Assembly (NCBI GenBank): GCA_018065125.1
Contig: JAGHTY010000075.1
Span: 1-48,168, forward strand
Length of the DNA: 48,168 nt
Direction: 5' to 3'
DNA from: Candidatus Minthousia equi
GTDB taxonomy: Bacteria; Bacteroidota; Bacteroidia; Bacteroidales; Bacteroidaceae
Below the pieces are notes generated by a model. It made no database searches. It was not told where the DNA came from and saw only the letters and a list, made by a program, of their open reading frames with translations. The number at the start of each line of letters is the position of its first letter. The first letter of the stretch is position 1. Positions 1,341 through 48,168 of this stretch are shown here, one piece after another. The translations under genes were made by a program, and so were the position numbers.

Positions 1341-1560
1341 TTCATTTCTTTCGTCCAAACGAAAGAAACGAATCAAAGAAAGGTTGCCCGCTGCGTCTCC
1401 AGAAGCTAAAAAGCACTTTCAATTGCTAAGTCGCAAAAACTCGTGCTTCGCACTCAAACAGTTTGCGCCTCTTAACGCAATCTCAAGCACTTTTCTTAAC
1501 GCTTCTTCCGCCAAGGCGGATCTACTTGCTGACCTGTGATTTTCTTAACGCAATTTTCAT
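1341..1560 (+). repeat. Dispersed structured non-coding element, copy 1 (hairpins at 1345-1368, 1430-1469, 1507-1520; TCTTAACGC x3)
   Basis: Homologous by eye to 47991-48168; perfect stem TTTCTTTCGT/ACGAAAGAAA; nested stems 1430-1437/1462-1469 and 1443-1446/1450-1453. Confidence 0.75.
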
Positions 1561-47948: not shown

Positions 47949-48168
47949 AATGCCAATTCTGATTAATGATTTTTACCTCGCTTACTTTTTCATTTACTTT
48001 CCGGTGAAGGAAAGGAAACGAAGCAAAGGAATTGTAAATCGCTGTGGGAGGCGAAGTCGAGGTAAGCAAAGTTCACCTGCTGCACTTCCAGGACTAAAAT
48101 TTGTGCGCATGGACTAATGAGCAGAAACTCGCATTTCATGCTCAAACAGTCTGCTCATCTTAACGTCC
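47949..48168 (+). repeat. Dispersed structured non-coding element, copy 2 (truncated by window end)
   Basis: AATGCCAATTCTGATTA; CTTTCC-GGTGAA-GGAAAG; GAAACGAAGCAAAG; nested stems 48118-48157. Confidence 0.75.

Follow-up and report, generated by a model that had tools for sequence, protein, structure and literature searches.

REP, REPIN and BIME sequences are multi-copy, intergenic hairpin repeats with facing pairs of diverged copies, and they are recognised as strand-specific folded single-stranded DNA; the REP unit is 20-40 nt long and has a GT[AG]G foot. The attC sites of integrons combine variable stems with conserved unpaired features. IS200/IS605 elements carry subterminal hairpins that are likewise structures of single-stranded DNA, and their insertions have neither inverted repeats nor target duplications. 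In Bacteroidetes, atypical secondary structures flank the TnpA-REP genes of subclass 2.6 (RAYT group 5), with copies elsewhere in the genome (PMC6006769). Two further repeats are known from Bacteroidales: BrickBuilt and other P. gingivalis MITEs, reported from Porphyromonas, end in the IS5-type terminal inverted repeat (TIR) GAGACCTTTGCA (PMC4596501), and rAID arrays need a tyrosine recombinase together with co-oriented immunity genes (PMC12247911).

The window analysed here (48,168 nt) is a whole contig of a 2.6-Mb draft genome in 219 contigs, and the closest relatives of its proteins are in the Bacteroidaceae (69% to a MAG of this family from horse faeces, about 60% to Bacteroides and Phocaeicola). 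A preliminary description had picked out two segments, 1428-1477 and 48116-48165, as a two-copy element with selection on its fold. Both were found in place when the sequence was read directly, with every claimed pair present. The outer stem has 7 of 8 pairs in copy 1 (1430-1437/1462-1469) and 8 of 8 in copy 2 (48118-48125/48150-48157); six pairs, three outer and three inner, are altered on both sides between the segments, the mismatch T1431.C1468 of copy 1 becomes G-C in copy 2, and the unpaired AAACTC, TTC and TCAAACAG are identical. The number of copies was too low, as a covariance model found 24 in this genome. The fold was correctly drawn, but the 50 bp taken for the whole element are only the tip of a larger hairpin B (1382-1521), which has a hairpin A upstream of it (1341-1372).

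Architecture and covariation of module E

The full unit, here called E, is a module of about 180 bp made up of hairpin A, a linker and a 136-nt hairpin B, in which the loop of hairpin A pairs with the linker as a pseudoknot. Folds of homologues give hairpin A a T-rich/A-rich stem, followed by the linker complementary to its loop. In copy 1 hairpin A lies on the plus strand, where TTCATTTCTTTCGT pairs with ACGAAAGAAACGAA with one A.C mismatch around the loop CCAA (1355-1358); the sequence, the homologue folds and a boundary alignment all place it there, and the alignment sets the outer boundary of the module at the base of this hairpin in the family of the window genome. The linker segment of copy 1 (1382-1388, plus strand) pairs with the loop through CAA/TTG only, although up to 8 bp are formed elsewhere. 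Hairpin B of copy 1 is a full plus-strand match (83.8 bits, E-value 2.5e-20) to R1, the covariance model built on hairpin B.

The first half of hairpin B runs GGC, S1, TA, S2, TA, S3, AACTC and a small apical hairpin, and the second half TCAAACAG, S3', CTTAAC, S2', CTTAAC, S1' and GCC, with TA/CTTAAC (twice) and AACTC/TCAAACAG as conserved unpaired boxes. On the plus strand of copy 1 the covariation alignments pair 1402-1406 with 1501-1505 as S1 (also seen in the R1 match), 1409-1426 with 1477-1494 as S2, and 1429-1437 with 1462-1470 as S3, which is the outer stem described earlier and can be read in the sequence itself. Between these stems, on the same strand, TA at 1407-1408 faces CTTAAC at 1495-1500 in internal loop 1, the same motif recurs in internal loop 2 (TA 1427-1428, CTTAAC 1471-1476), and AACTC at 1438-1442 faces TCAAACAG at 1454-1461 in internal loop 3. 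Among 50 representatives at no more than 80% identity, both TA/CTTAAC loops are conserved, column identity in loop 3 is 87-100%, and the unpaired boxes vary less than most stem columns do. A search with the core pattern recovered copies from sister species that have quite different stems and identical unpaired boxes. The apical stem-loop (1443-1453) reads GTGC-TTC-GCAC, which on the minus strand, to which the triloops of homologues assign it, is GTGC-GAA-GCAC with a C-GNA-G triloop.

Copy 2 is cut by the contig end. Its hairpin A spans approximately 47988-48022 of the plus strand (TTTCATTTACTTTCC ... GGAAAGGAAACGAA, read from the sequence) and is separated from the linker by about 41 bp of foreign sequence (48030-48070, plus strand), an insert that is absent from most copies and is also found beside other copies of the window genome. 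Its hairpin B (48071-48168, plus strand) matches model positions 1-95 of 136 at 55.7 bits. Beyond copy 1, the plus strand at 1533-1560 (TTTTCTTAACGCAATTTTCATAATGCC) resembles the 3' end of another E subtype, by comparison with partner copies at two other loci.

In 24 diverse homologues aligned with MAFFT, two-sided changes are seen at 37 of the 42 pairs. The covariation score of this alignment is 0.628; sliding the 3' partners by 1-3 columns lowers it to 0.083-0.216, and shuffles score 0.163. All 41 pairs have two-sided changes in 141 copies (score 0.672, at most 0.157 when slid); this alignment was fitted to the model, and the 24-copy test is therefore the fairer one. The pseudoknot was assessed in 47 diverse copies, where the longest loop-linker complement averages 4.87 nt, compared with 3.52 ± 0.19 (maximum 4.19) in 1000 re-pairings. 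The covarying loop-linker pairs are CTTGAT/ATCAAG, CTTGAC/GTCAAG, CTTGAA/TTCAAG, CTTGAG/CTCAAG, GTGAA/TTCAC, GTCAA/TTGAC, GGTGGC/GCCACC and CACCC/GGGTG. E thus has a fold with 41 covarying pairs, a loop-linker pseudoknot and conserved unpaired boxes.

These two-sided changes, far beyond chance, strongly support the earlier proposal of selection on a fold in junk-like DNA. The ORF at 1282-1539 (85 aa) is spurious: homologous copies differ by indels not divisible by three, which break the frame, and an origin as a conserved protein-coding fragment was rejected.

The folded strand

In RNA, G.U is the commonest departure from Watson-Crick pairing. We counted pair letters in 50 copies at no more than 80% mutual identity. 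The strand of the preliminary description (window plus) gave 1676 Watson-Crick pairs, 29 G.U and 302 other mismatches, so that G.U made up 1.7% of pairs and was rarer than the average other mismatch (0.48x). On the complementary strand G.U (G.T) rose to 3.7% of pairs, or 1.2x the average other mismatch. The RNase P RNA of 23 Bacteroidales, used as a control, had 12.4% G.U at 10.5x the average other mismatch, a contrast with E that is somewhat inflated because the control structure came from RNAalifold, which favours G.U. Minus-strand mismatches comprised G.A 168, G.T 64, G.G 30, C.A 29, A.A 24, C.T 8, T.T 6 and C.C 2; the pattern is that of the stable purine mismatches of folded DNA, with G.A, G.T and G.G as the tolerated ones.

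The apical triloop of homologues, read on the minus strand, is GNA in 103 of 110 cases (N being A, C or T), and a C-G pair closes the triloop in 106 of 117. The d(C-GNA-G) sequence forms an exceptionally stable DNA mini-hairpin. The minus strand is also predicted to be the more stable in 42 of the 50 diverse copies with DNA energies and in 48 with RNA energies. Together, the mismatches and the C-GNA-G loop mark the complementary strand as the folded one, and the active folded strand is most likely the window minus strand. We conclude that DNA fits the fold of E better than RNA does, and regard an RNA read off the minus strand as the less likely form. Wobbles could also be suppressed by arm-to-arm correction of the hairpin, but the strand asymmetry, the GNA tip and the asymmetric boxes with their conservation would not arise in that way.

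The preliminary description had pointed to Rfam. None of its 4227 families matched the window at the gathering threshold, and a relaxed threshold gave only sub-threshold chance matches around the element. The RNA family that the description implied is not supported as stated, given the scarcity of G.U on the strand it had folded. No tRNA or tmRNA was found.

Distribution, mobile units and cassettes

R1 found the 24 copies of the window genome, where the simple core pattern alone gave 20. The module occurs in 40 of 247 Bacteroidales genomes (34 genera) and in 17 of 149 Bacteroidota genomes, some of them outside the class of the window genome, and it is multi-copy and intergenic, with tens of copies per genome. 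Three E subtypes were compared by blastn with collections of plasmids and phages, and none gave a match; the exact core was present in four IMG/VR contigs, as phage sequence or as host flanks. Tandem same-orientation arrays were seen in three Bacteroidota genomes outside the order, two of them with a period of about 290-310 bp. Searches of open-access article text found no earlier description of E.

Where neighbouring copies lie within 600 bp of each other, the arrangement is convergent 23 times, tandem 19 times and divergent once. Tight convergent pairs, in which 20-26 bp separate the B hairpins, recur in several genomes that are distant from one another. For the window genus and Bacteroides-like genomes, the module ends at the foot of hairpin A, and the flanks diverge at once beyond it; in the window genome, several copies start right after or at a stop codon. 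Three other genomes (G513, G329 and G561) have units with terminal inverted repeats outside hairpin A. The TIRs of G513 are CTGTTTTGTGCA; R1 detects E in nearly all units that bear them, and in the few remaining ones only weakly or not at all. At different loci these units are flanked by flush direct duplications of 38, 46, 48, 66, 71, 78, 99, 101, 106, about 110, 164, 174 and 276 bp. Duplications so long and so variable are uncommon in TIR elements of any kind and are not what a DDE enzyme, with its short and fixed stagger, would leave; they were found in G513 only. Tandem D-E-D-E-D arrays also occur in this genome beside long variable target duplications.

In G329 the TIRs start with GGCTCTATTCTG, and duplications of 8 bp flank five of the eight copies (AGTAATTT, TTTAAATA, TGTTTTTT, AAAAAAAT and TCTAAATA). 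Those of G561 begin CTGAGTATCCGC, with duplications of about 8-10 bp at two copies. No transposase gene was present in the E-bearing units examined, and with TIRs, target duplication and the lack of a transposase the units of G329 and G513 are MITEs by the usual definition. No clean target duplication emerged from the direct repeats next to convergent pairs, either in the window genome or in Bacteroides-like genomes, and most other genomes gave the same result. At one locus of the window genome (L133) a 32-bp terminator-like repeat, at 1-37 and 602-638, flanks a convergent pair; it may be a target duplication that the contig end has truncated. The behaviour of E is that of a component of small non-autonomous mobile elements, and its units form a Bacteroidota-wide set in which two diverged copies typically face each other.

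In complete Bacteroides-like genomes, E occurs every 1-4 kb in one region adjoining the capsule locus, with single gene modules between copies. These modules encode Fic (three proteins), AAA_14/DUF4143 and DUF234 ATPases, AbiEii toxins and a Gp49/HigB-like toxin. Some arrays hold 7-8 copies in the same orientation, mostly with one gene module between each, and others alternate in orientation. The genomes G192 and G051 have cassettes in common in a different order, with ends at or near E, and homologous recombination between E copies suffices for this shuffling. Inspection of the ORFs in these arrays recognised no recombinase, and most E-carrying genomes have dispersed copies without cassettes. 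Arrays with Fic, AbiE, AAA/DUF4143 and HigB-like genes were seen at seven loci in G192, G051 and two further genomes. A minisatellite of about 50 bp (CACTTTGCTTCGCTCGTG..CTCCTCGCTTTCAGCATCG) follows hairpin B in Bacteroides-like genomes (L081:4236-4608 and the E tails of L078) and yields spurious ORFs such as LNSLRSNRIACLTLRALSPFNASHKRPVL.

Explanations and comparison with known systems

The reading we favour, held with about as much doubt as confidence, is that E is a folded single-strand DNA site of small non-autonomous elements, used by a putative trans-acting enzyme. The active form would be the window minus strand as single-stranded DNA, which would become accessible during replication or transcription or when supercoiling extrudes it. 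The boxes would then be displayed by hairpin B, tipped with C-GNA-G, together with hairpin A and the pseudoknot, to an enzyme that acts on single strands and is provided in trans. Since the modules face each other, each strand would bear, towards its 3' end, one folded module in the correct orientation, and the site would work either way round. The fold, its covariation, its spread and the strand asymmetry are seen in the data; the single-stranded state and the enzyme are what we infer. E may drive movement, the replication of an intermediate, or the protection of neighbouring genes. We also entertain, tentatively and with considerable doubt, a more specific version: Bacteroidota would have an undescribed mobility system that acts on single strands, and E would be the structure it recognises, with a pseudoknotted single-stranded module towards the 3' side on each strand and target strands opened independently, giving the long variable duplications of 38-276 bp in G513. 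Toxin-antitoxin and defence cassettes would in addition be exchanged at its copies.

Several observations weigh against this single-strand site. The enzyme is putative. No match to Y1_Tnp (PF01797) was found in eight E-rich Bacteroides-like genomes, a Y1 HUH gene was also absent from three other genomes, and E lay within about 1.5 kb of none of 30 Y1 loci, five of which have the subclass-2.6 motif YIH[QN]NP. Long target duplications were found in one genome only. E also lies inside units with different terminal repeats, and the 8-bp duplications of G329 resemble those of an ordinary DDE transposase acting on TIRs; E may thus not be the strand-transfer site. Repeated arm-to-arm correction, moreover, could keep the stems Watson-Crick without any single-strand function. 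The TIRs and 8-bp duplications of G329, the other TIRs of G561 and the frequent start of E directly after a stop codon in the window genome speak for E as the mere interior of ordinary MITEs moved by DDE transposases, its fold having no part in movement and being kept by such correction or as a transcription insulator between adjacent genes. We think this improbable, as units whose terminal repeats are unrelated share the same boxes and fold, in different classes of the phylum, and the unpaired boxes are better conserved than most stem columns. A structured non-coding RNA read off the window minus strand, with hairpin B first and the pseudoknotted hairpin A at the element boundary, and carried as a gene by mobile repeats, would explain the covariation, the pseudoknot and the conserved asymmetric internal loops, all typical of structured RNA; the minus-strand mismatches are tolerable in RNA and RNA energies favour that strand.

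That RNA is nevertheless unlikely, given a minus-strand G.U frequency far below that of RNase P, the DNA-type tip and the lack of an Rfam match, and because facing modules would send one RNA out of each end of the unit. The facing heterologous pairs recall REPIN and BIME, and with the structures and genomic copies known at subclass 2.6 genes (PMC6006769) they would suit an atypical REP of Bacteroidota RAYTs copied by an HUH enzyme. The missing Y1 genes, the Y1 loci devoid of E and the size of the module leave this very little probability. An attC-like cassette recombination site of an integron-like system would account for the same-orientation arrays and for the different cassette order of G192 and G051, but the arrays without a recognised recombinase, those that alternate in orientation, the many genomes with dispersed copies only, and the ability of homologous recombination between repeats to shuffle cassettes as well make it scarcely credible.

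E is found across the phylum, in bacteria of the gut and of the environment, with tens of copies in a genome; it is not in Rfam, and annotation usually treats it as junk or gives it small spurious ORFs. The evolution of its base pairs resembles that of folded single-stranded DNA rather than of RNA, which points to an undescribed handling of such repeats. If the fold is a DNA signal, we know of no larger single-strand DNA structure of the REP/attC type with covarying pairs, and the search for a binding protein would be straightforward. The module also gives a handle on the build-up of toxin-antitoxin and Fic cassettes beside Bacteroides capsule loci.

E resembles the C-GNA-G hairpin signals of phage N4 promoters and plasmid single-strand origins, with a common triloop, a long imperfect hairpin and unpaired signal bases, a likeness that we take as resemblance only. 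BrickBuilt and the E units are both Bacteroidales MITEs with terminal repeats and a tandem minisatellite between two ends, but an identity was rejected, as the ends differ and no such fold is described for BrickBuilt (PMC4596501). rAID and E arrays are both Bacteroidales arrays of defence genes with repeated intergenic sequence; the defining parts of rAID were not seen, the Fic, AAA/DUF4143, AbiEii and HigB-like genes examined lying in both orientations with no recombinase seen. IS200/IS605 ends and E probably share single-stranded DNA structures near element ends, although E units, unlike those insertions, have inverted repeats and target duplications and are present without a Y1 transposase. 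REP/RAYT was the strongest known candidate because atypical structures are reported around subclass 2.6 in Bacteroidetes (PMC6006769). RAYT-like Y1 genes with YIH[QN]NP and no E nearby were seen at four loci in sister species and other Bacteroidales. E and the subclass 2.6 structures, compared here by their published description only, occur in the same phylum with copies elsewhere, yet loci with the subclass motif are without E. E is like REP, REPIN and BIME in being an intergenic, multi-copy hairpin repeat with facing diverged pairs, and probably in the strand-specific folded form; it is 5-8 times larger than a REP, with three internal boxes and a pseudoknot, and membership was rejected for want of a Y1 gene in E-rich genomes, of E at Y1 loci and of a short palindrome with a GT[AG]G foot. 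Like attC, it has variable stems and conserved unpaired features and separates TA-rich cassettes in Bacteroides-like genomes; unlike attC, it has mixed orientations, and no integrase was recognised by inspection beside the arrays examined. On the features tested, E appears to work like a REPIN or attC site, as folded DNA with conserved unpaired signals, while belonging to neither.
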